Origin: Auricularia sp. M13 | Lineage: Eukaryota; Basidiomycota; Agaricomycetes; Auriculariales; Auriculariaceae | DNA: 64,000 nucleotides | Direction of reading: 5' to 3' | Assembly: GCA_037042915.1 (NCBI GenBank) | Contig: CM073198.1 | Location: 124,001 to 188,000, forward strand | Shown: positions 24,713 through 58,415 of the stretch, piece after piece | Numbering within the stretch: the stretch's first letter is position 1 | How the letters are laid out: each line of letters opens with the position of its first letter | Position numbers and translations under genes: made by a program | Notes under the pieces: model-generated | Told to the model about the DNA's origin: nothing | The model's database searches: none | What the model saw: the letters and a program-made list of their open reading frames with translations, nothing else

Positions 24713-25236
24713 TGTTGCGTTTCGGGGCACCGTTTAGAGACTCGTGTGGGGGTCGAATCGAACGACAAGCCCAGTCTGAGCGCTTAACGCTTGATGCCAT
24801 ACATGTTCCCGTGCAGTTACGTCGGACCGATGCATCCACATTTACGTGTATCATATGCTTCTGCCGCGCTTTCTCGCCCGGCCCAGACCTGTGTAATTGA
24901 CCGCGTGGTACCCGGGTACAATATCAGGTCGCGATTTCCTGAGCATATCCTCAGTCAGATTTGAACTTGCAATGGGTGCGCTCAGCAATAAATCCATCAT
25001 GGGACATTGAACTTTTGCAACTAACCGATATGCTTGAGAGATATGGGACTAGGAAAGCTCATTGCTGGAAGGCTCCCAGAACGAGTTGACGTGCAGAAGC
25101 CGTATTCGACAGGTGCTGTTGATGTCAGCTATTGTTACCTGGGCGCTCTGGGAACAACCAGAGAACAACAGTCCTGCGGCTGTGATAAGGGCATCTCAGC
25201 GGCTGTCCACGAAGAGCAGCTTGACCTCCGCCCACT

Positions 25237-37245: not shown

Positions 37246-39501
37246 TCAGCGGCGCTTGCGCTTCTGCCCGGGGTTGAGGGACGAAGCGGATGCGCGTCTC
37301 TTGGCTGCCTTCCCCTTCAACTTCGCCTTCGTAGACGGCGGAGATGGCGAAGATGAAGGCCCGGGCACATGTGTTGGGTCAGGAGTAGGTGAGGACGTCG
37401 ACGTCTCCGCCCGTGTGGCTGCGGGCGTAAGATCGTCTTCGTCAAAGTCCTCCCATTCCTCTGCGTCTTCCTTCGGCTCCTCCGCGTCCACCTCCTCATC
37501 GCCGTCATCACCGGCATTCTCGTCATCTATCTCACTCTCCCCGTCGTCGTGCCCCTCGAACTCGGGCGGCTTGACCTTCTCCCACTGCGATTTGATGTTC
37601 GCGTGCAGTATTTCCTCGCGGTCGACGTCCTCGATGCTCTCGCCGAACGAGTCGTTGAGGAACTCGAGGAGCTCCTCCTCCGTCCTCTCAGGGTACGCAA
37701 GCTTTGCCTCCTCCATCGCGTAGCGGAAGCGCTCGAAGCCGATCTCGCAGCCCTGGCGCATGACGGCTTGGTTTATGGTCACGAGCGGGTAGATGCCGTC
37801 CTGCTTGCTCACTGGGCGGTCTATATCTGCCGTGTTGGGGAACGCCGCAAGACAGCGGAGCACTGCGAAGTCGACTTTATCGCCATACTTGATGTTAACC
37901 TTCTTCCCTTGACTTGCTGGGGCTTTCTTGCGAGATGGTGTGGAGGACACCGCAGGTGTGCAAGGCATCAGCGTCTGAAGTCTTGCATTCACTTGATGCC
38001 TGTTCAGCAAGGTCCCAGACAGAGGCTTGAAGCGCTTGAGAAGCTTGAGAGCCTCATTCCTTTTCGCGATCTGAGAGAGTAGAGGTAAGTACGCGCACCC
38101 ACAAAACTCTCAGGGAATGTGAACTGACGTTTGATCTGTAGAAACCCTCTGGAGACGCTGTGAATATCGCACTGCGGACCTCCTCGCCGCCGCGTGACTT
38201 GGCCCAGTTCTTGCACTGTACGCAGACAAGTATCGTCTGATTTGGGTCGTCAGAGGCCGCACCGTCGTCGTAGAGCTGCAGTGCGAAGATGATGTCGGGT
38301 CCAAACAAGTTGTCCGGCTTGAGGAATGGGACACCGTCAGTATTCCTGAACCACCGAAAAGAGCCCTTGCAGGTCGAGACATTCCGCGCGAGCACAGATG
38401 TAAGTTTTCGCAGCGCGAAGTCCTTCGCCATGCGCGATCCCGGGCGGAAGACCGAGATCAGCTTCCCCTTCTTGTCGGCCCAGGCAGGGCGGACATCCGG
38501 CTCAAAATCGAACACGTCGGAGAGCAGCGAACCGTCTCCAGCGAAGCGCAGCCAGAACAGATAAACCATGGCGTCCTCAAAGCCGAGCCCTGTGCTCGAC
38601 TCGCTGCCAGTGGGGTTGCTCAGCACCTCGTTGATCACCGCGCGGATGCTCAACGAGAGGCTTGGGCTATCAAATAACACCATGAGAGCTGCGAGAACCA
38701 GTCGTTCGTTGATCTCGATATGCAGCTTCTTGTTCTTGTTGATCACAAATCGACCGATGCCCATGTCGACTAGCTCGGTGCGCTTCATGTCGAACTTCGG
38801 AAAGGTCATTTGCGTGAGGAATTGCAGAACTCCTTTCCGAGCAAGTCTCACAGAGACTAAAACATCGACGGACAGTGTGTTAATGAAACACAACAAGCCC
38901 AGTGAGTACATACGTACCACGCTCTTTGGCCGTCACAGATTTCGTCAAGAAAGCCCTTGGCACCAGGCCCTTGATCTGCAACCCGTCGATGGGACGGTAA
39001 AGCGACCGGTACTGTGGCAGATGTTCGCCTGTCGCGGAGAATATCACATTGTCGATCACATTACGGACACTATTCTCATGTGGTCCCTGCATGAGAATAT
39101 GTTGTACTGGGACGACCAGGAAACGGTGCCTATATGAAGCGTCAGCCGATTGACACGACTCTAAGATGGAGCTCTAACCGGCCGCTCAGCCAAAATTTGA
39201 TGTTATCATGAATGTCGGATGGCCAGCTATCCACCAGTGCGGGCGTGAAAACGTGATAGAGAAACCGGCGCATATCTTCCACCCAGCGAACATAGCCTCC
39301 TAGGTCAGCGAACTCCGTGAACGAGTCGTCTTTAAAGACGTTGGATGAGAGTGCATTGAGAACGTCATTATAGAATAGCCGTGTCCCTGCGATGATGACT
39401 CGCCCGGCATTGAGAGTGCTGTGCGCACCAACAACGATGGGTCTCAGCAACGAGCGATTCGCCGTTAGAGTCGCATTGGAGAATGCTGATCGCCATTTTA
39501 G
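37246..39501 (-). pseudogene. C-terminal part of an NTPase-nuclease gene interrupted by the 17-kb transposon (segment C)
   Basis: This minus-strand segment corresponds to the C-terminal two thirds of module gene B. It contains LLRPIVVGAHSTLNAGRVII, IAGTRLFYNDVLNAL, MTFPKFDMKRTELVDMGIGR, the nuclease block FLKPDNLFGPDIIFALQLYD and ILVCVQCKNW with D and Q-x-K retained, the second globular region FAVLRCLAAFPNTADIDRP, and an acidic tail ending GQKRKRR. It begins exactly at the border of the large mobile element; the matching N-terminal part lies beyond the element's other end at 56603-57992. It is incomplete on its own, with no Walker A. Apart from the insertion, the exons look well preserved, which points to a young interruption. 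Confidence 0.85.
39495..39501. repeat. Target-site duplication, left copy (ATTTTAG)
   Basis: ATTTTAG here is repeated at 56603-56609, directly flanking the 17-kb element. Similarity may extend imperfectly by AGCC on the right side of both copies. KDZ elements are usually reported with 8-bp duplications, so one end base may have changed. Confidence 0.75.
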
Positions 39502-39575
39502 GAGCCTCCTCAGTCAACTTAGGGTTATTCTCAAGTGGCTTCAAGCCTCATCGGAATTATTTTATTGAGGGTTAG
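39502..39575. repeat. Left terminal inverted repeat of the KDZ element
   Basis: From 39509 the sequence CTCAGTCAACTTAG aligns with the reverse complement of 56525-56595. Shared blocks include CTCAGTCAA, ATTCT, GCCTCA, GAATTATT and TTGAGGG/CTGAGG. The left copy is more diverged and its internal hairpin is imperfect. The outermost seven bases of the two ends do not match. Confidence 0.75.
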
Positions 39576-39915
39576 GCCAGGATATGCACAAGACGGGTAT
39601 ATACAGTGGCAAGCGGGAGAGTACATCAAGATAAAGTAAACCCGGATAAACACGGGGGGAGGGTTGGACCAGACGGGGTAAAACAGGATATACCGAGATG
39701 CGCACCAAGTCGCAGCGATCGGGATAAATCGGGGTATGTCAAGATAAGATGCATGCAAATATCCCGATAAAGGCGATCCGCCGATCATGCGCACAGAACG
39801 AAGTAAACCGCGATAAACCCCAAAGCCACCGCGCGACAGTGAAGGTCAGAGTAAATCGGAATGGGGGTAAATACCGGTATAAATTCCAAATCAGGGTAAA
39901 TTCCAGGTTTGTAAG
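39576..39915. repeat. Subterminal short-motif repeats, left end of the KDZ element
   Basis: A non-coding stretch carries about ten copies of a degenerate motif, (C)GG(G/A)(G/A)TAAA or its close variants: CCCGGATAAAC, GGGGTAAAAC, CGGGATAAATC, CCCGATAAAG, GCGATAAACC, GGGGTAAATA, CAGGGTAAATT. The right end has two or three similar copies (CAGGGTAAAA, GAGGGTAAAA). Clusters of short motifs just inside the ends are typical transposase-binding regions in large DNA transposons. Confidence 0.6.
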
Positions 39916-40820
39916 GCGATGCACGGTGCGGAAGAGAAAATGGAGCAGAAAGAAACGAGATACCGTCAGTAAAGAGCGCAGAATGCGAGTGTATTTTCTA
40001 CGCACGCTGTCATTGCATACTGTGCACGCCATCACCTGCGGTGTGCGCGGCATACGGCATTAGCGCCGGTGTCCACCCGTCCCGCCACAGCCCACTTCGC
40101 ATCCGCAACCCTCATCGCCTCGTCCCTGCCGTCCTCGTCAAGTTCTGTCGCATGATGCGATGGTGTCTGCCTCGGATGGCGCGATGGCAACGGAGAGCGG
40201 TGGCCGCCGCCGCAAATGCGGCGACGGCAACGGTGTTGGTCACCGCTGCGAATGCAGCGACGACGACGATGGCTGAATGTTGCGGCGAGCACGCTGCCCA
40301 GGCCATGTACGAAAAGACGAGCGGCCGCGGCCTTCGAATGAAGACCGTGGGTGGGGAAAGGGAAAGAGAGTCAAAAGCGGAGCTTGAAGTGATTGGGTTC
40401 TCAACCAGCCCCGGACAATCGAACGATGGCTCCCGGTAATTAAATCAGTTCCCACGCCAACAGCTGACAGAACAATAGAAGCCCCGACTCAGGGCATGCC
40501 GACAATTGTCTGACGTCGGCGCGCTTCATCACTTCTCAGATCGAGGGAATGTTGCGGTTCTCATCTCTCACGATTACTCAGGGCGTATTGGACAAGGCAG
40601 AGAATATTTCGTTAGGGATGGACACAGAGCGCATGCTCGGATTGACTCAGGTCACATTGTACATGGTTAATTAGCGTCGGCGCACTGACCGATTCATCTC
40701 ATTTCATCAGATCCTGGGAATGTTGCAGTACAGCTCGGAATCACGCAAGTCGTATTGCATCAAGGCAGCAGCAAAGATCTTATTGTGAAGGACGCATAGG
40801 GCAAGTTTTCGTATCTAGCA

Positions 40821-41734
40821 TTAGAGCTCGGGGGACAGGTCGCGGCGCTCGACTTCATCGTCAGTGGAGTCGATCACGTACACCTTTTCGCCGCGGATGG
40901 TCTCGACCTTGACCGGGAGCTTGGAAGGTCCAGCCTTCGGCGACTTGCCTGCAATGTCGATGTCAGCCAGATGTGGTTACAGAGAGAGAATTAATGCGAA
41001 CCTTTCGAGGACGACGCCTCGGGCTGAACCTTGGCGCGCTTCGCGCGCGCGCTCGGGCTGCTATCGCCGTCGCTCTTGCGCTTGGCGGGGCTGGAAGAGC
41101 TGGCCTCGGCGGCACGCGGGCGAGCGCCAGTAGCACGGCGCCGAACGACGTGCGTGGTGCCGTTGATCTTGGACGAGACGAGCGACGTGGCCTGGAGAGA
41201 GGTCTTCGCCACCGCGAGAGCCTTCTTCGCGGTCTCAGCGAGCTCGGCGGCGGCCTCGGAGACGCCTTCGGAGGCCGTCGCAGCGGCCTGCGCAGCGTTG
41301 AACGCAAGCGTGACGGCTTTCTTCTTCTCCTTGAGCGCGTTGGTCTCGCTGTTAGCGTTACGAACGCATCTACAATACAATCAGTATAGGAACTGCGAGA
41401 GGGAGAGAACACCTGACGTACTCGTCGTGGACCTTCTCGTATGCCTCCAGAGCGGGCTTGGACTTCGCGTCAGTCACGAATCGAGGCTTGCACTCTTTGC
41501 CAGCGAGGCACTAGCATAGAAATTCAGTATTAAAGCGTGGAATACGAACGCGAGTCTCACCAGGACGTAGTATCGACCGACATTGGCAAAGCCGCTCTTG
41601 TCCTGGGGCTTCCATTGGAACTTGATGAGGAAGGCGACTCGCTTGTTGCCGCATTGAGTGCAGTCCAAGTCGTTGATGACGGGCTCGGGACCAGCAAGTC
41701 CGTGGGCGTAGCCGCGCGCGTATTCCATGGCCAC
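40821..41734 (-). CDS. Transposon-borne zinc-ribbon protein (GRF-like finger), nuclear
   Basis: The N-terminal domain has VINDLDCTQCGNKRVAFLIK, then FANVGRYYVLCLAGKECKPR, giving CxxC, an N-x-GRYY core and a CxxxxxC pair, a layout like GRF-type zinc fingers that bind single-stranded nucleic acid. A helical, Ala/Lys-rich middle (CVRNANSETNALKEKKKAVT, then AAAELAETAKKALAVAKTSL) and a Ser/Lys-rich tail with KRKSDGDSSPSARAKRAKVQ, a bipartite-like nuclear signal, follow. It ends VIDSTDDEVERRDLSPEL. Introns: about 41512-41556, 41372-41424 and 40949-41001. A TATA-like CTATATAAAC lies 67-76 nt upstream of the ATG. The finger assignment is by spacing only; a role in transposition or host targeting is inference. 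Confidence 0.65.
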
Positions 41735-41800
41735 CGATGTGCGTCGTAGAGCTGAGAGAGAGAGAGAGGGGTGTCTGACGGAAAGCGCAGGTCATAGCTG

Positions 41801-41810
41801 GTTTATATAG
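41801..41810 (-). promoter_or_regulatory. TATA-like element of the zinc-ribbon gene
   Basis: On the minus strand this reads CTATATAAAC, ending 67 nt before the ATG at 41734. Motif and spacing fit a core promoter. Confidence 0.4.
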
Positions 41811-41979
41811 CCGCGGCGCGCTGCTTTGCATTCTCCTGCTTTCCGAGCTCACGCGGCGATCTGCGCAGCTCGGTGACGACGGGATTCTCCTCGCTGGATG
41901 GCGTGATGCCTTGCCGATGATAAGCGTAGCGGGAGAAATGCAGACAATGGAATTGCTATGGCCTAAGCGGTTGGTTACA

Positions 41980-44900
41980 TCACGTCGAGACAGTGTTGGA
42001 GAAGGGATGATTCGGCATTGATCTTGGGAGGGTGGGAAGAATGCCAAAGTAGTCGTAGAAGGTCTGTGCATAGAACTTCCAGACATCGCGTTCCACCTGC
42101 ACAAGTTGGTCCATCGTCAGTCCTTCATGCGTCGTAAAGCGCCTGAAGTTGGCAACTTCGTGGCACCTCGGCCAAGCTCGAACGAGCTTCCAAAAATGAT
42201 ATATGGAACTGAGGCGTTTTGCGGGATCGGGATCGGTCTGCGCGGGTGTGGACATCCCGGAAGGCACAAAGCCGTCATCTCCGCCCCAGCATTGTTGCAG
42301 GATAGAGTCGCGCTCGGCTTGAATCTCAGGAGTCCAGATTTTCATGGACTTGAGCACGGTGGTGTCCGTACGACGAAGCTGGAACCGAAATCCTGCTTCC
42401 TCCAACTCCCAGATGAGAAAAGCGCGAACCTCCCGGCGATTCAGGTCAGACGGCTTCAAGAGATGCTGGCGGATGACGAATTCCTTCAGGGAATGGCCAT
42501 TCGGCAGCTCGCGGTTATACCCATAGACGGGATCAGGCGGGGGAGTTCGGGGATGTGACTTCATCGAGGGACGCACACCCTGACCGGTCTCAGCCTCCAA
42601 GTCGCTCGCAGACGGCATCGCGTGCAGTCTTGAACCTCCACGGTCAGATTCCGAAACCTGAGATCGCGCAAATGTGAGATGATCAGTAGGTTCTCAGCTT
42701 TCTCGGCACGCACCGTCAGCGCAATCTTCGCGCGACTGTACAGAACGAGTCTCCCTTCGGAATTCTGCACAAAGTATGAGAAACATGTACTTGAGCGAGC
42801 CCAACTTACCGTTACGAGCGGCGTCAGCGCTTTCCACATGGCCCGAGACGCGGGGCTCAGACCGCATTCGTCGTCACGTGACTGATGCCACGTGATGACG
42901 TCGGTCAGCAGGATCTCCTTGTCGCGTTGATCTTGAATGCCGTCGGGGACGCGAGAGAAACGATTGAAGAGCAAGACTCTCTTCATATCGTAGTCCCAGT
43001 ATTCGTCCCAGAGAGTAGACGACGAGGAGACCGTGGGGAAGTCCACGGCATCCATGAGTACCATGCGGCGCGCCGCCACCTCGAAGAAAATATCCAGATT
43101 CGGAACCATGTTTAACCAGCCTTCTGGTTCTACCTCTGCGCGAGATGAGGTCGCGGGAAGGTCATCGCCGGGGTATGGGACTCGGGTATATTCGTCTACT
43201 CTGGATTCCCCCGCGTGCGGATCCTGCTGGGCGAGCGCTACATGTAGCTGCTCGGAGAGGCTGGTGACCCTCTTCTCGAGGGTTTCGCGTTCACCTCGCG
43301 TCAGAGGCGCCGGCGTATGAGAGCCTTCGCCGCCCGCGGCAGTGTCACCGTCGTCCTCAGGCCCGTGCTCCTCGATCCAGTTCGCGAGCTCCCGATCGAT
43401 GTGATACTTGTCGTCCAAGATCTTGCGCCAGACTGAGGCTGTGAGGCCGCACAAATAATCGGCCATTATCTTTCGCAGCCAGAAGTCGCGCAGTGCGACC
43501 CAAGCTTTCATGACGAACATGAACCTCTTCTCGTGCTTCAAGATGAGATGCAACGGGGGTAATGCAAATTCCAACGGGCGCGTAAATACGTCCTGCGGAA
43601 CGGCGTGCGGGGTATCGTCGGCGCAAAGTCGCCACTCTCGAGTCACCGAGCGATCTACCGAGTTTGCGACGTCCGTCATCCAACGCGGTAGCGGAGGGAC
43701 CCACTCTGGCAAGGCAAAATGCTCTGTCGCCTGGTGGCCAGGATCCGTGGACCATGTTCTGGGGCGCCATTGCTTTGGCGCGTCGGGGTGTCTTCGCGGC
43801 TCGTGATCTAAGAGAAACTCAGTCCCGTCACCTGTTCAATGAATCGCAAAGCACGAACCTGAGGTTCGGGCTTGTTCGTGGAGAATATACCGAGGTAGGA
43901 CATTGTTCAGCGCCACGTCGCCCCGCGATGACGCTCGCGCCGATCTTGGCGATTGAGAGCGGCGAGACGATGACGACGACGGCGGCGGAGAACGAGAACG
44001 GCGAGATGGGCGCGGCGTTGGGTCTTCCTCCACATACGCTGAATATCTCGGCTGGCGCCCTCGGGCAGGAGAGTGGGCACGACTGTGACCAGATCGAGCT
44101 TCAGGTTCGGCACGCTCGTCCGTCTCGCGCATCTCAGTCGTCGGTGGAGAAACCTCACAACGATCCCGATGACGGCGACCGTACGCGTCCCAGTGGTAAT
44201 GCTCTAAGGAATCGAGCGGCTGCGTTTCTACTGCTTTTCGCCATAGAGCCGGTTGCTTCACATTACTGCGGCTGACGTTCTTGGGAAGCCCGCGAAGAAC
44301 GCGATACGCGGGAATTCCGAGTCTATGCAACATGTCTGCCATTGTTGCATCTGACGTGAAAACGCCGACGAGGTTGAACATGCGATCAGATACGAACAGA
44401 GGATCGTGTACATGATGCTGTACGTCGAGGCGGAAAAGTCGAAATGCGCGAAGCTCAGCAATGCCTCTCTGTACTCGCGTGACCAAGAGGGCCGATTCCT
44501 TGAATGTCGCGGCCAGAGTATGGAGGTCAGACAAGAGCCGTATGCACTCTGTGATGGTAGCTGTCGGCAGCAGGTGTCTCGTTCGCGCGGCCGAGAGGAG
44601 GGGAAGCACACGGAGATGGATGTCGTAGAAGGCCTCGCTGAGCCTTGAGTGAAGCTCTCTTGAGATCCTTCCGTACGCAGCGCCGTCTGACAGCGCTTTC
44701 CAGTCGTGAGACTGGAAGACGTAGCCCACAATGTTCTTCTGATGCAGCTCGCGATGGAGCTCGTGTTTCTCGATCCAGGCCATATGCGGAGCTGTGCTAA
44801 CCCACATCTGCGGGTACAGCATAGGTTCATGAGGCCCAAGACGGTAATCGATTCGCGGACGCGGGAATTCGGGCGGTGGGAGCTGGGGTATGGCAGCATT

Positions 44901-45050
44901 CACGCACAGAGAGGCTACGTATTGACCATCTCCGATACCGTATGATACCGTCCTGATATCGCTGGGCCAAGATTCCGAGGGAGTGCGAGGGCGGGACCCT
45001 GGGATAAGCTCTGGGGGGCCGTCGAGATCGCCTCGTCGCGAGTGATACAT
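41980..45050 (-). CDS. KDZ-element accessory protein 1 (uncharacterised, about 930-970 residues)
   Basis: The large protein starts at 45050 (MYHSRRGDLDGPPELIPGSR). Its N-terminal half has MLYPQMWVSTAPHMAWIEKH and the block VGVFTSDATMADMLHRLGIP, which recurs in hypothetical proteins beside KDZ transposases in agaricomycetes. An Arg/Ser-rich linker (PSRRSRSPPPSSSSSRRSQS) resembles an RS domain. An intron at 43808-43858 joins a central region with EWVPPLPRWMTDVANSVDRS; another near 42770-42814 follows. The last third (42618-41980) contains LSSIYHFWKLVRAWPR and FYAQTFYDYFGILPTLP. Between the middle and last thirds the frame changes near 42,560-42,618; an intron is likely but I could not place one with confidence, so two genes remain possible. 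No catalytic motif was recognised. Confidence 0.65.
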
Positions 45051-46838
45051 GGCGTCTTAGAAGTCCAGATCCAGGGACAAGGCGAGACAAAGAAGGAGAA
45101 CTGGACAAGGGCTCGAATGAGCCCTTGCCTATTGGTGACAGTGATGAGCGCGATGGAATCAAGCGCGGGTTCGGCGCGCACGCGAGCGACCAGGAGTTCG
45201 GTTGTGCACCCTCGAATGAGGGCACACAGATTATGATACCAAGATAAAGGCCTCGAATGAGGCCTTCACCGTTGTTGGGTGTTGTTCGGTGCCGCGCTGA
45301 TCAGAGAGAGGAAGAGACGAGCTATCGGAGTTGTCGGTCTTCGAATCGTCTTCACCTCGCGGGCACGAATCAGCACATACCGCCGCAGGCCTCATTCGGG
45401 GCCTGCGTCAGCACCTGGCTGCTTCCATTCGGAGGTGGCCAATCGTATTCGACCGCGCGCTGCCCAAGCACGCGACAGGTCGCGCCAGCACGCGGAACCC
45501 GCACGACTGCGATGATTGGGCGATATCAGCACCACGCGCTCAGCTCATTCGAGCTGGGTGCGCTTGTCGCCCGCTTGAGGGCGCCGATGAAGGTTGGCTC
45601 ATCGCTACGGAGCATCGGGCTTCATTAACTCCTGCTTTGCAGCTTCATTGCGCCGTCGCAGCCGTTCGCGAAATTAGGATCGCCCATCCAGCTCTGCAGC
45701 TTGGCGCATCAAGGCGCGTCGCCTCCAGTGCTATGTTTATAACGATATCGCTCACCATTCCTCATCAGTTGCCCAGGTTATTGTCGAGGGCGACTCGGGA
45801 GGTGCTTCGTTTGGCGTCCAACGCGCCGTGTCTGGTACGCTTGTACTGTCTGGCCAACATCCTCCCTCGCTGACCTATTTCCACTGAAGGTTCCCTGTTC
45901 TGCCGCTGTCTGCTTTTGTCTTAATCTGTTTCACCTGTAATTTGTGTAGCGTCCATCGTGCCGTTTGTAATCTTTCGTATCATAATCCATTCGTCTCAAT
46001 TTTTTTTCTCGGACGATGAGCGCTCAGTGACCGCATGTCCATTTTTGCTCATTAATCTACGATGAAACTCTGGTTCACGGCGCCGACCAGTATGCGGACG
46101 TTCGCTGAAGACACCACTGACGCTCTCGACCTTTCCAGCGTCCGTTTTCAAACACCCACGCAGCCACGTCCTCTCTCTGAATCTCCCTCACGTAGCTAGC
46201 CGTCCCATGACGCGCGAGAGCCACAGACCGAACAGGAAGGAACATCTCAATCTGACCAACGTTTGCTGATTGTTCCAGGAACAGAATTCACGCGCGACGC
46301 ACCTTGTGTTTTTGGGCGAAGAACTTCCAGGTGAGAAGCTGGAGTCGAGCTTCCTCAAGAGTTCTTGAACTCGGTAAGTGTCTCACTCTACATCTCACAA
46401 GCAACAACTCACTCCGCATAGAAAACGGCCCTGAACTCGTGCGTTTCCGGCGGAATGAGCGCAGGGTGCGACCCCATTTGCGCGGAAACTCCTACAACGA
46501 ATACGTCGCCGTCTTTAGGGCGTTGCCAAATACCGAGCAGCTCGGCGGTCAGCGCGGACGCCTTCGGGAGATCAAGAGTGGGCATCGCGCAGCATGCTTA
46601 GCAACAATAAGCTCTGGATTATAACGGTCTCACGGACGAGTGACGCAGATCACTTCTCGCGCGTTGCCTTAGTCCGGGATGTTCCCGCTGGATTGCTCCT
46701 TGGCTGCGAGACAATGTAAGTCGGCAAACACTGCGGAGGCTTATAGATGATAATGCGCTGCACAGCTCTGGGCTCCGCCTTGAAATCGCGGTTTACTCGC
46801 GAGTCCCGGCAACCTGATCCCCCTCCTTCTGCTTCAGC
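45051..46838. other. Intra-element interval without a supported gene
   Basis: This 1.8-kb stretch lies between divergent accessory genes. A repeated phrase, TCGAATGAGGCC/TCGAATGAGGGC, occurs near 45110-45265. Exon-like pieces around 46061-46600 with plausible splice sites (donor AGGTGAGAAG near 46330, acceptor CCGCATAG near 46423) could belong to a small gene, but I could not assemble a convincing frame. Confidence 0.4.
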
Positions 46839-49420
46839 ATGTCCGAGGCGAACGAGAGCCGGACGAAGATCTGGAACAGGCTCGCGGAGGACCAGAAGAA
46901 TCAGTTCCTTGGCAAATGGCAAGCTGACGCGCGCTGGACGCAAGACAGGTTCGGTCACGGAGGCCTGCAATCTTTCGTCGAGGAGGTCAGCGCTGACTTC
47001 AAGGCTACGTTTCCCGACATCGTTGGCGGCGATGACAAAGGGTGGACGAAGGTGCGTGAATACTTCCGGACCGCATGTACTTCGCAGATTGCTCGAGTCT
47101 CATGGTCATTCAGTACTGGCAGAACAAAATCAAGAACGACAGGAAGACGAAGAGGAAGCCCGCGGTGACCGGGAAGGCGATCGAAACCTTGCTCCTACCT
47201 CCCCAGACCGGGAAAAAGGCACAGCCCGCGCGGCTCGCGTTCGCGGACATTCACAAGGACGACCTCTCGCGTGCCTATGAGTCTGTCACGGGCGGCGGCG
47301 AGGTGCAAGCGGGGGACCGTTCTCGCATCTGGAACAACGCGTTGGATAAGTATATCGAGAATAATCAAGACGAATACGACAAGTTCAAGGCCGAGCACGA
47401 GCGAGCCAGGAAGGAGAAGTTGCCGGCGAAGGACGATTCCTCTGGAGATAGGGTCGACGAACGTGCGGCAGACGCCCAGCGCCTTCTGTATGATCTTCTT
47501 CCTGACGCGACGTCTCTACTTATCCGCGATTTCAGGATGCAGCAGGCATTCAAGGAGACGCTGAGCAGGCAGGTGGATCATATGTCGTCCCTGACAGGCT
47601 TCACGATCGTCGCAATGTTCGTCGGGCAGGAGAGCAACTTCAACAACGTTGTCGGCTGGTGAGCGCCATCTCATTGCGAGTCGCTGTTCTGCGTCTCATC
47701 AAATGCAGTGTTCACGACAGTAACTACAAATTCTGGTTCAGCGATCGAGGACGTCAGCTCCGACTCGAACTGGAGGACGCACTCGTGAAGCATTATGAGA
47801 AGCTCTCGGGTGGTGCGCGCAGTTGTTCTGTCTATCTCTGCGGGATTTACGAACATATCCGCAGACGATCAAAACGAGGGACAGCACGGTAAACATTTCA
47901 ACGTAGCCTTGCCGCATACATACTGATAGCCAGGGAAGACCGCGACAGATTCATACCCTCTCGTACTCCGTCGCCCGGCGGCGAGGGGATCGAGCCCGTC
48001 ACTCAAGCGTCACAGGCTACAGTAGACGACTCAGAGGATGCCGATCGACGCGCTAACAGTGCGTCTTCCGATGGCACGCTGTCCGCAATCTAACATTGCT
48101 CAGGCGATTCCATCGAGACTCGGGTTGAAATGGAGGAAATGGTGTCTCATACTGATTTAGACTTCGGCAATGGCGGTGTCTCCAGTGCGTAGAATCGCCT
48201 TTGATTTTTCCCACACTGATGCGCGGAATTCAATGCAGGCGATGTTGAAATGGAGGAAGTCACGTCTCATACCGACTTGGAATTGGACGTCTCAGGTGCG
48301 TAGACTCGGCTTCAACTTGTCTTACGCTGAGGCGCGAAATTCAACGCAGCTAAGGGCCCTTTCAAGAATGACACGACGATGGAAACGCGTCGCGTCTCGC
48401 ACGAGCCAGGCGAGTTATCCTTAATTCTGACGAGTCGCAGCGCGAACTGACTGAACACAAGCCGTCAAGGACCTCGCCACAGCCACCGATCGGCACCCTG
48501 AGGACCCTGTCAACGCCGCGGGAGACATCGACACCGACCCGCGTTCTGCGATTGCAATACGCAAACAAGAGATACTGGGCGAGCTGGCGGTGCTACCAAA
48601 CAATCTCAAGTGGATGAAGAGTGACACCAAGTTTCTTCTGGATATCAACGGTTCGGAAGACTGGGTTTCACTCGTACAGGCTTGGGTCGAGTACGAACGC
48701 AACTCGGTCAAGATCAAGAGGGTAGGCACCCGGAAAATGTCCGGAATACACGTTTCTCACTTTTCCGAAGACCCTCATTCCTATTAAAAAGCGTCCTGAG
48801 GCTTACAAGGCCTGGACAACGAAGCGGCATGAAGTTCCCAGCGACGACAATCTCTTCGGCTTCCACGACCAATTTATGTCGTGGTATATTGCGCTTCAGC
48901 CCAAGGAACGAGCAGTGGAAGAACAGTCTTTTTCCTCTCTCCCGCCGGTCGCTTCGGTCGACAAACGAAATTATGGTAACCTTCATCACGTCGGGACCCG
49001 CGGCTTCGTCAGCCTGCTCTTTGGAGTCGCCTGGATGCTCAGCACTGAACAAAGGCTCGTGCTTTCGCAGCGCCATCCTACCGCGAATGCGATGGCCCTT
49101 GTCTCAGAATTATCTGAACTACTAGCGTACCTTTGCTCGGCGTGCGTTCGTCTGTTCTCTGCGCGTTTTTGATCTCATATATCCTTAGAGTAACCCCGAA
49201 TTCTGTGGCCATCCAGCGCGCGGGAATACCAAACGAGTCCGACGTTCCCGCAACTGTTGGGAAGAAGCGTAAAGCCAATATGAGCGCGAATCCGCGGAAG
49301 AAGGTCAGATCTGCAGGTGAAGCGAGGTACGAGTCGTCGAGTAATGGCGAATTCGGTCTAACGATCTTTCCACGCAGAGAGGAGGGTGAGAAAATCACGA
49401 AGCGCAAAGGGAAGAAGTAG
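46839..49420 (+). CDS. KDZ-element accessory protein 2 (uncharacterised)
   Basis: The start at 46839 gives MSEANESRTKIWNRLAEDQK. Exons in order carry VIQYWQNKIKNDRKTKRKP, DIHKDDLSRAYESVTGGGE, MQQAFKETLSRQVDHMSSLT, FTIVAMFVGQESNFNN and VHDSNYKFWFSDRGRQ. Small acidic exons follow, then IRKQEILGELAVLPNNLKWM, IPIKKRPEAYKAWTTKRHEV, FHDQFMSWYIALQP and a final exon with VTPNSVAIQRAGIPNESDVP ending in KITKRKGKK. Two 54-nt introns at 48185-48238 and 48296-48349 are copies of each other. Proteins with the MSSLTGF..G block and a YxxW-type N-terminus are frequent beside basidiomycete KDZ transposases, but their function is unknown. The Lys-rich segments suggest nuclear location. The gene lies 107 nt upstream of the transposase on the same strand. 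Confidence 0.7.
48104..48349 (+). repeat. Tandem duplication of an exon-intron unit in accessory gene 2
   Basis: Two consecutive units, period 111 nt, each contain an exon encoding VEMEE(M/V)(V/T)SHTDL followed by a 54-nt intron that begins GTGCGTAGA and ends with a GCGCG(G/A)AATTCAA(T/C)GCAG pattern. Both introns keep GT-AG borders and identical length, so each copy remains spliceable and the frame is kept. Confidence 0.75.
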
Positions 49421-49527
49421 CATCGTGTCCCGGGCATCGGCCCGACTAAACAATGTAATCGATAGTTGGTCGTGGTCCAACGCGCTTCGTGTGTTCTCAA
49501 TTCCTTTGTCCACTTACCACCGTGACG

Positions 49528-52500
49528 ATGAGCAAAAAAAAGCGACAGGCCGACATTGACGAGCTCCCCGTCAAGAGCGTGCCGCGACATGGTATCAGCG
49601 GTTATCAGCGTCTCGATTTGATGGGTGAAAGCGAGCTTCCCACTAAACGAAGAGCACCAGTTGCGACGCCACCGTCTGCTTTGACCGCCTTCGAACCCAT
49701 TCGAAGCATCCCGCGTGCAGGATCCTCTACGACGAAGGCGAATTCCATTGCAGCCCCCGCAACGCATCCTCCGCAAATACCAACTCTCAACCGATCCCAG
49801 GTACGTCCCAGATATTCGCGGCGCGCGCGCGAGACAGCTAAAACAGCTTCTCAGAAACCGTCACAGGTATTGACGGAATTCAAGGACAACTGGGCGACCT
49901 CAATGCTTGGGATAATGTACGAACGCGAGTTCGACTCTCGCTTCGGAAGCCAGTGCCGCGGGTGTGCTCCTCGTGATCGTTCGGCTTTGTACAAATGCTT
50001 CGACTGTTTCCAAGCTCCCCCTCTGTGCAAGGAGTGCACGCGGGATGCTCACAAGCATTCACCTTTTCACGACGTCCATCACTGGACCGGTACTTTCTTG
50101 AGAAAGGTGTCTCTCGCAGAGCTCGACCGTCATCCATATCGGGCATGACGGCGATCCCTGTCCTTCAGGTGGATCCTCAGTCCCAACGAAAATGACCATC
50201 GTCCACGCGGGAGGTATTCGGGAGATGGACGTATTACCATGCCGCTGCGGAGACACAGGTGCTGTTGGTGACTCGGCCATGAAGCTGTGGCGTGCGGGCC
50301 TGTTCCCTGCCTCCTTCAAGCGGCCCAAGAGCGTCATAACTGTTGCCGCGCTGCGCAGTTTTCATCTGTTGACATTGACGACCAAGGTCACAGCGAGCGG
50401 CTACTGCACATTCCTCCGCCGCCAGACGAATTACCTGGCGGTGGAGACGGTCAAGGTGAGATGACGGGCAATGTTCGAACAGTAACTCATTTGCGGACTA
50501 GGATCGAGCGCGCGAGTTCTTTATGGGTTTTCGGATGTACTGTTACCTCAAAAACTTGAAGCGCAACGCTCTCAGTGTTCCGGGACCCGGCACGGAGTTA
50601 GAACCTGGATGTATGGCTGTGTTCTGCCCTGCGTGCCCTCAGCCAGGCATCAACATGGCGCCCGGATGGCGCGAGCGCGAGCCACATCTGAGGTACGCTT
50701 TACGGGATCGATCTGCACACCACATAACTTGCCTACAGGTTTCTGGATGCGTTGTACTCGACGAGAGACGGAAATTTTACGTTGGGACAGAAGAACAAAA
50801 GAATGGACCAAGAGGACCTGCCGATGACGATGAACGCGATGTACTTCGTTCACTACCTCCAGAACCGCGAGCTCATGCTGAACACGATGTCCGATCTCGT
50901 TGTAAGCTGGTTCTTCGTCCACATTCGCTTGCTTAACATCGTGATAGCCTCTGGGTTGTAACAACTTCAAAGCCGTCGATTATCGCGGAATTAAATCCGG
51001 AATAGTCTCTCATATCTGTCGCCATGACTTTTTCCAAGCAAATGGAACATCTGATTTGGTGAAGGGCGAGAGGTACGCCAGTGGAAAAGTGCATATTACC
51101 TTCTAACGCGATGCAGATTCGCGAACGTCGATTTCGCCGTGATTAGCTCGCATTACAGATACCTGGAACTTCTGCTATTCTTTCAGTTCTACGACATCGT
51201 TTGCCAGTGGTGGAAGAATTTCAAGAAGCGGATTGACGAGAGTCCTGCGATCACTTCGGCATATCCCGACGTGGCGACGAAGTGGCCAAAGACGATTACC
51301 GGCATAGGGAAGTATCACATCCTCAATCACAAGGACGACTGTAGGCAACTTCGGGACGCCCATCTACTACCGGGTGCCGCTCAAATGGATGGCGATAATC
51401 CCGAGCGCGTTTGGGCGGTGGAAGGCAAGATCGGACCCAGCATTCAAGAGATGGGCATCGGCGCTCGAGAGGACATGATGAACGAACACTTTTCCGACTG
51501 GAACATGCGGAAGACGGTTAATATTGGTAAGCACACCATCCTTGAAGGTACGAAGCTCAAGGTAGATCGCGCAGCCGCGTACCTCGACGCCAAGCTGAAA
51601 GCCGCGAGAATCGAGCTCAGCGCGCAGAGTCGATACCTTTCCGACCTGCGAGAGACAGTAAATAATGAAACCCTGGAAATCTGGGATGACGAGGTCAAAA
51701 AGTGGACGGCAGGCATTGTACATGGCGATGGTTCGCGGCCCGACATGCCGTGCCCGTACCAGGTATCCAAGGAAAAAGGTACGCTAAGTCGTCTACCATA
51801 GTGTTTGTGGATTAATACCGGGAAGCACCTACGGCGAAGCAGGTCCAAACGGCTCTGAAGGAAAGGCCGACGGTGCAATCGCTGGACGACGCCATTGGCA
51901 GCGGAAAGAGTGTCGTGGACTTGATCAAAGTGGGACTTGACATAGAGGAGAAGCAGTGAGTCTCTAATAATCTGCTCGTAGGATCTGACTAATATTCTGT
52001 GCAGAGTTCTCCTTCGACTGTCGAGGGAGAGTAGTAAAACCGATGCTAAGCACGACGAAGTTGCCGCCCAAGCCAATGTGCTCGCGCGTCGCATTCGCGC
52101 GTGGACAAGTTGGCAGCGATCTACGTTTGCCACACTCTTCCAGCTTAGCGAATCATCTGACGCGCAGGACGTCGACGAGGAGAACAACATCCTCCCCGAG
52201 GACATCGTACTGAGTTTTCCCAGCGCGTACATGTCGGACGAAGACGTCACAAGCCGCGATCCATTCAAGGAGCTACTCGCATTGGAAAAGGAACTGCGAG
52301 AGGCCATGGCGAACCAGGCGGTGCAGTCCTTGCGGAGATATATTGCATTGCGCACGCTTCTCGAGTTTCGGCGCCCAAAAGGTGTCATCGAGAAGACGAA
52401 GTCCCACAAAACGACAGAGCGCGCGAGCTTCTCGGTGAAGCATTGGCACGCTTACTACAACATTGTGTTTCAACATCTCTCATCTCTCGGCGGCGAGATG

Positions 52501-53106
52501 GTGCCGCATCTCCGACAGCTCGAAGACGCCGACGTCAGGAACCTCGACATGCGTGGCGCTCACATGGGTTACAGCAAGAATAAAGTATCTTGGATATGGG
52601 GGAAGGTGGGGGATAGTGAAGCAGTACCTGAGCGCGAGCTCGATTCGTGGGCGGACGAAGGTTCGAATGCCATTCTCTTGTATTCGGCGGCGCGCTGACG
52701 AGTAGCTGCGCAGTACAAAAGGTGGAACATAATCTAGCGGCAGCCCGGGTTGCCAGATGGACTGAGGAGGTCGCTTTGCTCGATGAGGAGATGAAGCGCA
52801 CGCTGCGGTTCTTCGCCTTTCAAGAGAAATCGTGGATGGCTCGTCGCGGCTCTCAAGGTGACAATACGGGCTTCGATGCGTACTGTGCACGGTGAGAATC
52901 ATATATTCTTGATTAGAGAGAGTCTAATGCTTTACAAGTCGCGCCTCTCAGTTCAGCGCACAGTTGGAGGACGGCAGACGCCATTTCATGAGATGGTTGC
53001 CGCAGAGCGATATTCGCGAAGCAAGCGCACGCGATGACGACAGTAAGTCAATGAGTCTCCCGGACGCTGTTTCTCAATCTAACACAACATAGTGGAGGTG
53101 GATTAA
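49528..53106 (+). CDS. KDZ-superfamily transposase with CxC2-like cysteine cluster
   Basis: The enzyme that cuts and moves the element. The N-terminal cysteine cluster is CRGCAPRDRSALYKCFDCFQ followed by PLCKECTRDAHKHSPFHDVH. Then come LFPASFKRPKSVITVAALRS-like FHLLTL, VFCPACPQPGINMAPGW, FLDALYSTRDGNFTL (the first acidic position of the catalytic core), LVKGERFANVDFAVIS, FYDIVCQWWKNF, GKYHILNHKDDCR and the strongly conserved tail MDGDNPERVWAVEGKIGPSI. The C-terminal half is helical and ends DDDMEVD. About nine introns (for example donors at 50457, 50700, 51073 and 51959) join without a stop or frameshift, giving about 1,030 residues. The ATG at 49528 follows a 107-nt gap after accessory gene 2. 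A canonical DDE triad cannot be assigned fully by eye, but the Asp in YSTRDGNF and the NPERVW glutamate fit. Confidence 0.88.
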
Positions 53107-53934
53107 GGAGAACTACAGATTCTTTATCCTGCGCGCTTTTGCCTCGCTATCCCGCACGGTTATATATTCGGATACCAGTCTGTAAGTCTAGCAAGTGCAG
53201 CCGGGTAGCTTAAGGCTTTTGGAAATGAAAGAGCCTGGCTAGAGGCGTGCTTGCGCTGTTGCAAGATCACATCAGCGAGCAAGACGTGCGCCGCGCAGCT
53301 GGCGCAGATCGGCACGCTGCAGCGTGCGCGCTCACAATCTCGAGGCGTGCGTCATGCGGCGCGAGGATGAGATCGGCTTGCGGTAGAGCGCTATTGCGCG
53401 GCTTGAGACGAACTCGCGGTTGGCGGAGGACGCGGTGATGGACGCGGAGGAGATGCGCCGCGGACAATACCCGCATCGCCCCCGCGCGCTGGGAAAACGG
53501 CGGCGAAGCGTGTCCGCAGCCCCTGCGATAGCGCTCACCGTGTGCTGGAAATTGGCGCTGATTTGCAGGTGGATGATGAGCGAGACGACGTGCCATCTGT
53601 ATTAGCTGACATCGGGAAGGTGCGTTCTCGGATAGATAAGATTACAAGTCGAGCTCACGTTTCTTCATTCTACTCGATCTTCAGCTGTTTTCCACGTGTA
53701 ATACAAGCAAAGCAGGAATCGATCGTGCAACAGCTGGTCAATATAACACTCAACGTAATGTATCGTTCAAAGAGCAAGGTAAATCCCCAAAGGCAGACGC
53801 ATCGATAACGACGGTAAGTACCGAACAATTCCAAGAAAGTACCAGTTCATTGAGCAGACAGGTGCAGCTAAGACGAGCAGAGAAACATGTGGAAAGTATC
53901 AAGAAACGGGGCGACCATATCTGACGTACACAGC
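53107..53934. other. Intra-element interval after the transposase
   Basis: No gene supported. A GC-rich block at 53250-53540 gives overlapping open frames on both strands with low-complexity Arg/Ala translations, which is a composition effect. Convergent 3' ends of the transposase (plus) and the repeat-protein gene (minus) flank it. Confidence 0.4.
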
Positions 53935-55253
53935 TCAGACAAGACCCTCCTCGGCCATTCTTTCCAGCTCGAAGCTGGTGTAAGCCAAAATCTCCGATAT
54001 GGCCAGCACGGCGTGGTTCAGCGCTTCCACGTGGATGAATGCGATGTAGGCGGCGTAGCAGACAAGAATGGCGACGACGATGTCGAGAACGGGGACCGCA
54101 ACGCGGCCAAGGTAGCACAACGCGAGTAGCTTCGCGATGCGGACGCTGACGGGCTAAATACTGTCAAAACACGCAGAAGCTATTAATCTAACGTGCGTAC
54201 GTTGTACGATACGACGGGATTTCCACCGCGTGCCGGACGGGCAGGATGGACGCCGCCAGACGAATGGCCATCGTCAGCACGAGCGCCTGTGACAGTCTCG
54301 TCTTCGCTTGCATGGGCGCGAGCTCGTCGCGTAGCGTGGTGACCTCTGGGCGGCGCAGGGGGCGTCGCGCACGGTACGCCGGCGTGGGCAGTATCGGGCT
54401 CGGATCGAGGCGCGTTCGCGGGCACAGGTGCGCCGTCAGCTTGAGCCTGCGCTGGGAGCGCTACCTCGGGCGTGCTCTGAGCGACGCGGACGGGCTCGTT
54501 GACGTGCGCCAGGTCGCTGTGGCTCATGGCGGACACAGGGAGCGCGTGGGCAGTGTCGGGCTCGGATCGAGGCGCGTTCGCGGGCACAGGAGCGCCGTCA
54601 GCTTGAGCCTGCGCTAGGAGCGCCGCCTCGGTCGTGCCCTGAGCGACGCGGATGGGCTCGTTGACGTGCGCCAGGTTGCTGTGGCTCATGGCGGACACAG
54701 GGAGCGCGTGGGCAGTGTCGGGCTCGGATCGAGGCGCGTTCGCGGGCACAGGAGCGCCGTCAGCTTGAGCCTGCGCTAGGAGCGCCGCCTCGGTCGTGCC
54801 CTGAGCGACGCGGATGGGCTCGTTGACGTGCGCCAGGTCGCTGTGGCTCATGGCGGACACAGGGAGCACGTGGGCAGTGTCGGGCTCAGATCGAGGCGCG
54901 TTCGCGGGCACAGGAGCGCCGTCAGCTTGAGCCTGCACTAGGAGCGCCGCCTCGGTCGTGCCCTGAGCGACACGGACGGGCTCGTTGACGTGCGCGAGGT
55001 CGCTGTGGCTCATGGTGGACAGAGGGAGAGAGAGTTCGAGCTCAGATTTGACAGCCAAATACTGTACATCATGCCGGAGGAAATTCCACTGTTCTCCTTC
55101 GCCTTTTGCATGCATAGCAACATAACAGGGTACGTTATTTTGAACTTCAAGGGCCCAGACGAGCACGCCCTGGTCGTCGGAAGGCAACTTGCTCTGTCTG
55201 ACGTACCGACCAACAGCCAAACGCTCGATTGAACGCGATCGAGTCTTGAAATA
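53935..55253 (-). CDS. Transposon-borne repeat protein with C-terminal hydrophobic segment; 5' end unresolved
   Basis: An open frame runs from about 55253 with no ATG before the in-frame one at 55113-55115 (MHAKGEGEQWNFLRHD), so either that is the start or an upstream exon exists. After about 70 residues come four 54-residue repeats beginning MSHSDLAHVNEP and containing VAQGTTEAALLAQAQADGAP and VPANAPRSEPDTAHA. A Pro/Arg-rich segment follows, then an intron (about 54138-54192) to a last exon with RVAVPVLDIVVAILVCYAAY and IAFIHVEALNHAVLAISEIL, at least one transmembrane helix. It ends ERMAEEGLV. I do not recognise the family. The repeats are Ala/Pro/Asp-rich and probably disordered. Confidence 0.5.
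54366..55013 (-). repeat. Four tandem 162-bp coding repeats
   Basis: The unit contains GGGCTCGTTGACGTGCGC on the plus strand, recurring at 162-bp spacing (near 54489, 54652, 54814 and 54976). The two inner units are nearly identical; the outer ones differ by a few substitutions. The unit length is a multiple of three, so copy-number change would keep the frame. Confidence 0.85.
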
Positions 55254-55721
55254 TTACACAAGTTGGCTCAGACATGGCTGCCGAGCCGGTGGTCGAGTGG
55301 CTATGGATGCAGGCGGGTCACGGGGTGCGCGGCATGCACTTCGGGGAGCTCGCGCTCGTCGCCAATGCGCGGTCCGAAATTGGCAATGTCTCTCGCCGCC
55401 CGAGCAACTTGAACCATATGAACCGCAATTTATGAATATCACGGTCGGCAGAGGTCAACTCCACACGCTCGATAGCGCGGTCTCCGAAGTGATTGGCTCT
55501 GTCACGTGATTCGGAGCGCTGCTGTCCGCAGCCTCCAGCCGCATTCACCGCTGGTATTCGAGTCGTAGCTCCCTCCTTGCAGCAGCTACGTGACGTCGCC
55601 GTACAAGGAGGGGGCTTAGGGCCACTGCATCGCTGAACTCCAGTGCGTCCGCCCGCGTAAACCTGGCGACGAATGTGGCGTTGCATACATGCCGTGTTCA
55701 GTTCGCATTCCCGGGGCAGCA

Positions 55722-56205
55722 TTGAGGTCGGCGACGAGGCGGCGGAATACCGCAAGTTCTACCAGTTCACCAGCCAATGGAGCACGGCACTGTGGGCAAC
55801 TGGGAGGACATGAAGCATCTCTGGGACTACGCCTTCAACGAGAAGCTTAAGCCCACTGGCTGCAAGGTCTTTTCTCACTGAGCCGCCGATGAACCCCAAG
55901 GTCAATCGGCAGTGGATGGCCCAGGTCATGTTCGAAAAATACTGGTTCGGCAGTGCTGTCTATGTGGCCGCCCATCCAGGCCGGGTTTACGCTGTGTGCC
56001 CAAGGTGCGGATTAAACCAACCATGCTCTCATTTCACTGACGTTATGGGATCTGACCACCGGAGTGGTCGTCGATTCTGGTGACGGTGTAACGCACATAG
56101 GCCCCGTATTCGATAGTTTCTCGCTGGCGCATCTCACCCATGAACTCGACATCGCCGGTCGCGACGTGGCGCGCTACCTGATCAAGTTGCTGCTCATCCG
56201 ACGCC
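55722..56205 (+). pseudogene. Decayed fragment of the host Arp2 (actin-related protein 2) gene inside the transposon
   Basis: Readable blocks match the middle of Arp2 in order: [90 protein letters not shown] and KLLL. The frame shifts at least twice (before MEHG and before TEPP), there is extra change around KYWFG, and the N- and C-terminal thirds are absent. Between the CAQG-like and TGVVVDSG parts lies an intron-sized stretch starting GTGCGG, which suggests capture from genomic DNA rather than mRNA. ARP2 is a single-copy core actin gene, so this must be a spare piece. Confidence 0.8.
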
Positions 56206-56524
56206 TTGAACCGCACCGGCGACTTTGAACCTTTGCCATGTCAGGTACGTGCATGGAAATTATTTTTGTGCGCAGGATGTTACGAGTTGTGACTGCAGCT
56301 ACGAACACAACAGCACCTATTAAGCGCCGGTGGAGACGAGTCCACGCGCTGATGCGGCAGTGCCGGAGCATGATCATCACGGTGGGCGTGGGCTTGATGC
56401 GGCGGCGGGCATGAGCGACGCATTGTGGCAATAAGCGCCGGCTGCGCCTTGAGCCGAGCTGTCGCCGAAGAGATTTATCTCAGGGTAAAATGAAATAAAA
56501 GGCTCTGTGAGACTATCCTACATG
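56206..56524. other. Right subterminal region of the KDZ element
   Basis: No gene supported; a minus-strand frame at 56174-56431 is Arg-rich and unrecognised. Near 56480 a CAGGGTAAAA motif resembles the left subterminal repeats. Confidence 0.4.
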
Positions 56525-56602
56525 TGAGGGTAAAACCTCAGTAGAATAATTCTGTGAGGCCTACAGGCCTCACAGAATTATTCTAATTGACTGAGAGTGT
56601 TG
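56525..56602. repeat. Right terminal inverted repeat of the KDZ element
   Basis: Its reverse complement starts, after seven unmatched bases, with CTCAGTCAATTAGAATAATT and aligns over about 65 nt with the left end. It includes GAGGGTAAAACCTCAG and the large hairpin at 56543-56584. Confidence 0.75.
56543..56584. repeat. Perfect palindrome in the right terminus
   Basis: Two 20-nt arms (starting AGAATAATTCTGTGAGG) are exact reverse complements around a 2-nt centre (AC). The left terminus has a degenerate version at about 39520-39575. Confidence 0.85.
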
Positions 56603-56609
56603 ATTTTAG
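56603..56609. repeat. Target-site duplication, right copy (ATTTTAG)
   Basis: Direct copy of 39495-39501 at the outer border of the right terminal inverted repeat. Confidence 0.75.
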
Positions 56610-57992
56610 AGCCACGGACTGGACCTCGTCGAAGACCAGCAAGCGCGGATATTTGCCTGCTGGGATCTCGCTCGCGACATTTCGAACCTCCCCAGGAAGA
56701 ACAGTGGCGGGGAGCCCAGCGCAGACTTTGGTCAAGTCCTCGAAGAAATCAATGGGCCCCGTCAGCTCACCATTCTCGGAGAGCCTCGGGAAAAGCTGCA
56801 GCATGAGCCATGCGCGCTTCAACAGCGGCTCGTCGGTAATTCCGAGGGATTGAGAGACATCAAGGAATAGTCTGAGAACCAGAAGGCGGGATAGAACGAC
56901 CGCCGACATGACATGCTGCACAATCATGTCGTTGACCTCGAGTTGATCGCGATGTTTCTTCGTGCTCTGATCCTTCAGCCTGGCCGCCTTCGAATCAAAT
57001 CTGAGTTGATTCTGCACGTTGGGAGACAGCGTCCGCAAAAACTGTTCCTCGAGACAGGCGGTAAGGTCCCGAGAACCGTAAGGGCTAGACACTGAATCGG
57101 ATGCACACGTGAGGTATAAGCCCCACAGCTGGCACAGCGCTTCAAAAAGCAAGCGGCTTTTCCCTGAGCCAGAAGTGTTCATTACAATACTAGCAAAGTG
57201 TTAGGAAACCTCACGCTCAAGCTTCGTGGAACGCTCACCGATGCGAATTTCCCGAGAGTAAACGAGCGGTGCGCTTCGTCAGCCGACCAGCGTCAACAGA
57301 ATGATAGCAGCCAAGTCTATACAGGAGGAATTCTGGAGTAGCAGAAGATCTAAGAGGGTGCATTGGCAGTCTGAGGTTGCGGAGATAGGTCTGGAGATCG
57401 ACCGTTGACCCAGGTGGAGAGGCTTGCTTCCACGCAGACGGAGGCTCCCAGACGGGTAGAAATTCGGACAGCTGCAGGAATAGCTCGATCTTCTTGCGCA
57501 AGACGTTGAGCTTGTGCGAGATACTCGCGTTGAGATTATGGCTGGTACTCTCGGCTGGAAAGTGAATCAGACCGGAGCTCGGGAACCAGCGCCAACGTAC
57601 TTCGTATACCCTGTGGCACATTTACGGTCTCATTTTTCCCGCTGAATACTAGTCTATGTGAGAAGGAAAAAAGCAGAGTTGTAGCGCTTGACAAACTTAC
57701 TATCCCTCCACTTAGACACGAGACTGAGATCCGTGGGCGCATTCCTCAGTTGCATCATGTCAGACACAAAGTCGTTCGCGAGGGAAGCAGGTAATTGGTC
57801 AGGCGCGGGCTGCCCAGATCCCTGGAGGTAAACGTTTCGGGCCAAGGTTTCGGGCAACTGGCCGTGCTCGTCACCGAATTGGAAACTAGACCTACGAGAG
57901 ACATCAGCGACATGCTTTCTCTGCCGTGCGCGGACTAGGACCCACCGAATCATTGCCAGGCGGTAGTTAATCACCTCTATGTCGCTCATCAT
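56603..57992 (-). pseudogene. N-terminal part of the NTPase-nuclease gene interrupted by the 17-kb transposon (segment D)
   Basis: The segment starts at 57992 (MMSDIEVINYRLAMI), equivalent to the start of module gene B. It has SFQFGDEHGQLPETLARNVY, DLQTYLRNLRLPMHPLRSS, LLYRLGCYHSVDAGRL, the Walker A block MNTSGSGKSRLLFEALCQLW and Walker B RLLVFDEVQ, and stops at the transposon border. The parts it lacks are those found in segment C on the far side of the element (37246-39501). Introns match those of gene B, including the one just before the P-loop. It lies 424 nt downstream of gene E on the same strand, mirroring the A-B spacing of 525 nt. It is incomplete as it stands. Confidence 0.85.
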
Positions 57993-58415
57993 ATTGAAGG
58001 TGTGGGAGGAGGGTGTCACGACTCGTGTGGCAGGTGATGGTGAAGGGACCATCAGTCAAGTCACCAGTGAGGCTTATCAATGGACGCGCTATTGTTCTTC
58101 GCACAGCAACAAGAATAGCAACCATTGAAAACGAAGAGCACGTCTATCTTTGCAGGGTAGAACGCGAAGTCCTGTCAAAAGGAAGCAATCCGGAAATTTC
58201 CTTTTGTGGACTTGTCAGCTGCGTGGGAGCTGGGCGCTCCGTCCGAGCGTTGTTCTTCAGAAGGTATGGCGGATTGTTCCTCCCATCAGTGCAGACTCGA
58301 CAATCTCCCTAGATAACAGACACTGCCCTCGCTGGCAAAATATGGTAGCGAGTACATGGGCCAGCATCCAGTGTCGGACTCGATCGGCGCACGTCGACCA
58401 CTGTCCGACGACGAA

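Follow-up and report, generated by a model that had tools for sequence, protein, structure and literature searches.

A 17.1-kb Kyakuja-like KDZ transposon with an apparent companion gene in the genome of Auricularia sp. M13

The 64,000-nt stretch of Auricularia sp. M13 analysed here (hereafter the window; C6:124001-188000) contains, at positions 39502-56602, a 17,101-bp block (C6:163502-180602) flanked by a 7-bp target-site duplication, ATTTTAG, which we regard as practically certain to be a complete KDZ-superfamily DNA transposon (KDZ was reportedly named in Iyer et al. 2014). The best explanation of the locus, to which we assign a probability of about 0.6, is a complete KDZ transposon close to the Kyakuja type in which the product of a second gene, designated gene A, would also act as a protein of the element. 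Coordinates are those of the window unless preceded by a contig name, and the genome searched comprised 52 Mb in 14 contigs.

The initial annotation had described a 17.1-kb KDZ transposon between two copies of ATTTTAG, inserted into a gene whose two complementary parts form the flanks, and its borders, its KDZ domain and an uninterrupted paralog of the gene all bear this out. When open reading frames (ORFs) from the two flanks were searched separately, both matched the same paralog within the window, where the match of the 5′ part stops at 26614 and that of the 3′ part starts at 26612, showing that the parts abut at this paralogous empty site. Inside the block, a hand-spliced model of the KDZ transposase likewise predicted by the annotation matched PF18758 (KDZ; E = 8.4e-31, 107.8 bits against a cut-off of 26.6) and PF18803 (CxC2; E = 2.7e-19, 69.8 bits against a cut-off of 27). 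A DGNF motif followed by acidic motifs is visible by eye in its exons, and these may include the catalytic residues. Compared with a second long copy on contig C2 (see below), the transposase exons differ at 11, 9 and 39 sites in codon positions 1, 2 and 3, respectively (1523 sites), and two of its introns at 16 of 96 sites; this concentration of exon differences in third positions, in comparison with the introns, indicates that the transposase has been constrained in its evolution. In the N-terminal exons the two copies are set apart by two 2-bp indels, and a whole protein from either copy is putative.

Searches with the leftmost 599 and the rightmost 353 bases of the element each gave further matches in the genome, and we examined seven other copies with the same termini, as the initial annotation had proposed. 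Together with the window element, these amount to three long copies, two of 15 kb and three short ones, with exact 7-bp duplications in seven of the eight. The second long copy (C2:4636745-4653194, 16,450 bp) matches the window element in its tips and in the content and order of its interior but lies elsewhere, with its own duplication, ACGACGC, which supports movement of the interior as one unit. The third (C8:1171344-1194250) is rearranged, contains large insertions and has no duplication (2 of 7 bases). The short copies (C11:243294-245510, C8:1051969-1055313 and C10:3123059-3126017) share the tips of the window element, and each has an exact 7-bp duplication; identity to the window element is ca. 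80-81 % on the left and 91-92 % on the right, and the three are 98-99.8 % identical to one another over their shared parts. At two further loci (C11, ca. 3.03 Mb; C9, ca. 0.41 Mb) the left end was predicted by seeking the 7 bases that follow the right tip beyond gene A, in 1.5 kb per locus, and at both these 7 bases directly precede GAGCCACCTCAGTCA. This delimits elements of 15,183 bp (C11:3020963-3036145, duplication AGTATCT) and 15,356 bp (C9:402105-417460, duplication AATGGCC), in both of which matches to gene A, a further gene designated B, and the KDZ domain repeat the order of the window element. Right tips of the window type also occur at C6:619871, C12:620490 and C8:1124987, the last one ca. 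3 kb from a match to gene B.

At aligned sites, the window and C2 copies are 0.47 % divergent in the leftmost 11.2 kb and 7.9 % divergent in the rightmost 5.2 kb, with a break near position 50702, inside the transposase gene, so that the long copies are mosaic, likely as a result of recombination or conversion among copies. A mosaic of this kind precludes reading the age of the insertion from a single divergence figure. That the lineage was recently active is supported by comparisons among a set of larger sister elements, of which the one at C1:8578218-8601139 (ca. 22.9 kb) has tips CAATGG...CAGCTG and a subterminal inverted repeat of ca. 76 bp. Nine of the ten sister loci have exact 7-bp duplications and one has 6 of 7 bases, as compared by eye; the interior of the C1 element was read, and those of the other nine are known from their ends and their KDZ and gene A matches. 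At the KDZ end, six of these nine are 99-100 % identical to the C1 element over 2.0-2.8 kb, which points to a recent spread of the sister elements. The initial annotation had suggested a recent insertion of a possibly active element: the support for recent activity applies to the lineage and not to this particular copy. The C1 sister element lies within a multi-copy cluster of repeats or genes (C1:8514000-8796000), in which the flanks abut at several members, resembling paralogous empty sites. In the sister element, an ORF between gene A and the KDZ gene (L056:7103-7501) gave a weak HMG-box match below the cut-off (E = 0.0087), at roughly the position of gene B in the smaller elements.

The 22-base left tip of the window element was found at six places in the genome without mismatches (two were allowed), and the right tip at 11 places, each with one mismatch or none; the reversed controls found none. 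The inverted termini described initially proved to be an imperfect subterminal inverted repeat that begins at base 8, the first seven bases being unpaired between the ends. Its score of 30 was reached by one of 5000 pairs of random 60-mers from the element. The box CTCAGTCAA occurs in the window solely at 39509 (+) and 56587 (-), close to the two tips. Beside the right tip, on the transposase side, there is a palindrome that can fold into a hairpin of -24.5 kcal/mol (z-score -11.2; the left end gave -0.24). In the 15-kb family a palindrome equally far from the tip has a largely different sequence (z-score -6.8), and the changes are paired: nine of 13 inner pairs are altered on both sides (six distinct rows), a figure that none of 500 shuffles reached, and slid alignments scored lower than the true register.

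Gene A, on the left side of the element, is represented by paralogs at 19 loci, 17 of which have a KDZ match 7.7-23.7 kb away, and it is oriented away from the KDZ gene at 16 of them. For this count the 149 KDZ matches in the genome were reduced by hand to one per place, and on this list ca. 10 % of the genome is no more than 30 kb from a KDZ match. Place and orientation are kept across families whose gene A products are only ca. 44-60 % alike. Ratios of nonsynonymous to synonymous substitution rates (dN/dS) of three parts of the gene were 0.21, 0.25 and 0.47 against the C8 copy, and that of the middle part was 0.20 against C11, with dS near saturation; these values (0.20-0.47) indicate purifying selection. 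Gene A looks like a conserved companion gene of the KDZ lineage, belonging to the element itself.

Gene B, for which exon limits are approximate and the conserved core spans ca. 46839-47662, has paralogs at seven loci including the window, five of them between gene A and the KDZ gene and two on contig C8 away from any nearby KDZ match. It also looks like a gene of the element itself, judging by its position. Gene S codes for a putative product with N-terminal cysteine pairs and a basic tail, and its genome matches are confined to C6, C2 and C8:1172555, that is, to the window family. Neither B nor S gave a Pfam match above the cut-off. The element had been annotated as cargo-bearing; further genes do lie inside, and A and B recur with the KDZ gene across distinct families, which leaves capture from the host unsupported.

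Other explanations of the locus differ greatly in weight. The possibility that ATTTTAG matches by chance at the two borders, the gene having been split by some other rearrangement, is practically negligible: the heptamer occurs three times in the window, counting both strands, which would favour coincidence, but exact 7-bp duplications at seven of eight copies with these tips and at nine of ten sister loci, each copy bearing its own, and the abutting of the host parts in the paralog led us to reject it. It is also very improbable that a smaller KDZ element and other repeats came to lie between two tips as a nested composite. The mosaic structure of the long copies and the large insertions in the C8 copy would fit such an origin, but the interior of the C2 copy matches that of the window element in content and order and lies between the same tips, with an insertion site and duplication of its own, both 15-kb elements repeat the A-B-KDZ order, and exchange between copies accounts for the mosaic more simply.

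We give more weight, as a plausible though rather unlikely reading, to the same KDZ transposon carrying A and B as true cargo, acquired ancestrally and with no role in transposition. This would agree with the failure to find matches to B and S in the C1 sister element, with the two of 19 gene A loci that have no nearby KDZ match, both on C8, and with the lack of a transposition-like domain in gene A. On the other hand, the place and orientation of gene A are maintained between strongly diverged families, the gene shows purifying selection, and both KDZ-less loci contain internal stops (as do two KDZ-linked loci), one of them being situated in the rearranged C8 copy.

Besides those two KDZ-less loci, several observations weigh against a complete Kyakuja-near transposon with gene A as an element protein. 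Coverage of the KDZ profile is limited to positions 74-217 of its 217, and the left tip begins with GA, its first base being G and not the C of Kyakuja (PMC12730594, seen in part). Family copies are not independent, and the 19 gene A loci represent, in our reading, roughly six lineages, so that a binomial probability calculated for their linkage to KDZ would be misleading. The exons of gene A gave no Pfam match above the cut-off, PDB profile searches with two of them returned nothing for one and a best E value of 1 for the other, and single-sequence structure models of two exons were poor (predicted local distance difference test, pLDDT, 45.5 and 38.4), so that the case for its role is one of linkage. 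A Pfam search of the minus-strand read-through frames of 39495-48000 produced one weak match, under the cut-off. As for the ends, 14 of 100 shuffles also contained at least two matches to CTCAGTCAA, and its occurrence at both ends is, taken by itself, within chance. Of the eight right ends folded, those at C8:1194250 and C8:1125003 do not form the hairpin, most of it is missing from the C10 short copy, which still has a perfect duplication, and the sister ends fold weakly (z-scores -2.8 and -1.4). Most of the double changes derive from a single comparison between two families, and self-templated repair of the palindrome could be a source of paired changes.

Under the preferred explanation, that of a complete KDZ transposon with gene A as an element protein, the KDZ transposase would recognise the two tips together with the CTCAGTCAA box close to each, cut at both ends and insert the block at a target cut with a 7-bp stagger. 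The right-end hairpin may be a dyad bound by a protein of the element, and the product of gene A a second element-encoded protein that acts in transposition or in regulating it, and not a passenger. Gene B might be a helper of one branch, and the short derivatives with the same tips would have been moved in trans. More tentatively, a two-gene core (CxC2-KDZ plus A) and a 15-17-kb branch with a one-ended compensatory palindrome may constitute a two-protein, end-polarised system, which for KDZ elements would be undescribed in the literature searched. No description of gene A or of the hairpin was found in that literature, whose scope did not include Iyer et al. 2014; gene A is not described in the parts available of PMC8290104, PMC7473861, PMC6431247, PMC13066641, PMC12810828 and PMC7641404.

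On sequence features, the nearest known kind is the Kyakuja-type KDZ transposon. Kyakuja elements are DNA transposons of Agaricomycotina with 7-bp duplications, CA..TG tips and no terminal inverted repeats (TIRs), according to the part of the description available (Kojima 2025, PMC12730594). The window element shares with them the KDZ transposase, the 7-bp duplications and a right tip ending in TG, and the tips of the sister loci are exactly CA..TG; it differs in having an imperfect subterminal repeat, of ca. 76 bp in the sister element, and in gene A and the hairpin, which are absent from the same part of that description (PMC12730594). Because the tips of the window family are GA..TG and not CA..TG, we use the label Kyakuja-like rather than Kyakuja. 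Assignment to Zisupton, for which duplications of 8 bp are given (PMC12730594, in part), was rejected, since those of the window family and the sister loci are of 7 bp. The elements KDZ1, KDZ2 and KDZ3 of Cryptococcus neoformans (ca. 9-11 kb), with mobility shown experimentally, are also large, combine a cysteine cluster with the KDZ domain and insert into genes with duplications; as far as the consulted sections go, they differ in their TIRs of 139-241 bp, duplications of 8 bp (KDZ1) or 4-8 bp, a CxC1 instead of a CxC2 region and a smaller size (PMC12810828). A CxC2 region ahead of intact KDZ transposons has been reported in Pleurotus ostreatus (PMC7641404, in part); the text consulted mentions neither ends nor duplications nor companion genes. 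Starships, as portrayed in the excerpts available (PMC12134995, PMC13066641), are likewise large fungal elements with several genes, but they are larger and have a tyrosine-recombinase captain, whereas the window element has a recognisable KDZ transposase; a partial Pfam scan of interior stretches, made without a search with captain models, found no tyrosine recombinase. An element of the TET-bearing KDZ kind was also discarded, given that the 19 PF12851 matches listed for the genome all fall outside the element, although the divergent PE type could go undetected by this model. Five of those 19 TET/JBP matches (on C3, C4, C6, C9 and C11) are within 30 kb of a KDZ match, as judged by eye, and none is in an A-KDZ interval, so that KDZ elements bearing TET genes may make up separate families in this genome.

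According to the portion of PMC8290104 consulted, mushroom genomes commonly contain KDZ transposons. Such transposons are little studied, and their additional genes are readily mistaken for cargo. Here, several related large families coexist in one genome, some of their copies near-identical, with complete ends, duplications and a conserved companion gene, and an enzyme of the KDZ type appears to have mobilised blocks of 15-17 kb, and probably of 23 kb, each as a unit. It thereby becomes directly testable whether a second protein is required for KDZ transposition and what function the one-ended hairpin has.

Table 1. Features of the Kyakuja-like element and of the gene it interrupts (window coordinates).
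Feature	Coordinates	Strand	Basis
Uninterrupted host-gene paralog, paralogous empty site	24557..28854	+	Separate flank-ORF searches
Host gene, 3′ part (segment C)	37249..39501	-	Flank ORFs match paralog 26612-28854
Left target-site duplication copy, ATTTTAG	39495..39501	.	Border reading, copy comparison
Left (gene-A-side) end, GAGCCTCCTCAGTCAACTTAGG...	39502..39561	+	Tip search, inverted-repeat score
Gene S, ca. 210 aa, hand model	40991..41728	-	Genome matches in window family
Gene A, 972- and 987-aa models, 3-4 exons	41980..45050	-	Linkage, exon alignments, dN/dS
Gene B	46766..47892	+	Paralogs at seven loci
CxC2-KDZ transposase, multi-exon, 952-aa hand-spliced model	49528..52646	+	Pfam PF18758 and PF18803
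162-bp tandem repeat (54 codons), 4.0 units	54382..55028	.	Repeat analysis, copy comparison
Palindrome (hairpin), transposase-side end, 17 bp from tip	56543..56585	+	Folding energy, paired changes
Right tip, ...TGACTGAGAGTGTTG	56586..56602	+	Tip search
Right target-site duplication copy, ATTTTAG	56603..56609	.	Border reading, copy comparison
Host gene, 5′ part (segment D, extended)	56603..58598	-	Flank ORFs match paralog 24557-26614

Between the transposase gene and the right end, a minus-strand ORF of 356 aa, putatively coding, spans the tandem repeat, whose number of units varies between long copies: the C2 copy is shorter by 488 bp at this point, equivalent to ca. three units. The name NTPase-nuclease given initially to the interrupted gene is less secure than its interruption, because the matches of its 5′ part to AAA_16 (E = 0.0069) and of its 3′ part to Mrr_cat (E = 0.046) are both under the Pfam cut-offs. 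A genome search with the exon of the segment C flank identified, besides itself, the paralog as the sole close match (65 %), with weak matches of 28-31 % elsewhere. Additional members of the host-gene family occur in the window at 22646-24310 (+) and 60147-60506 (-).

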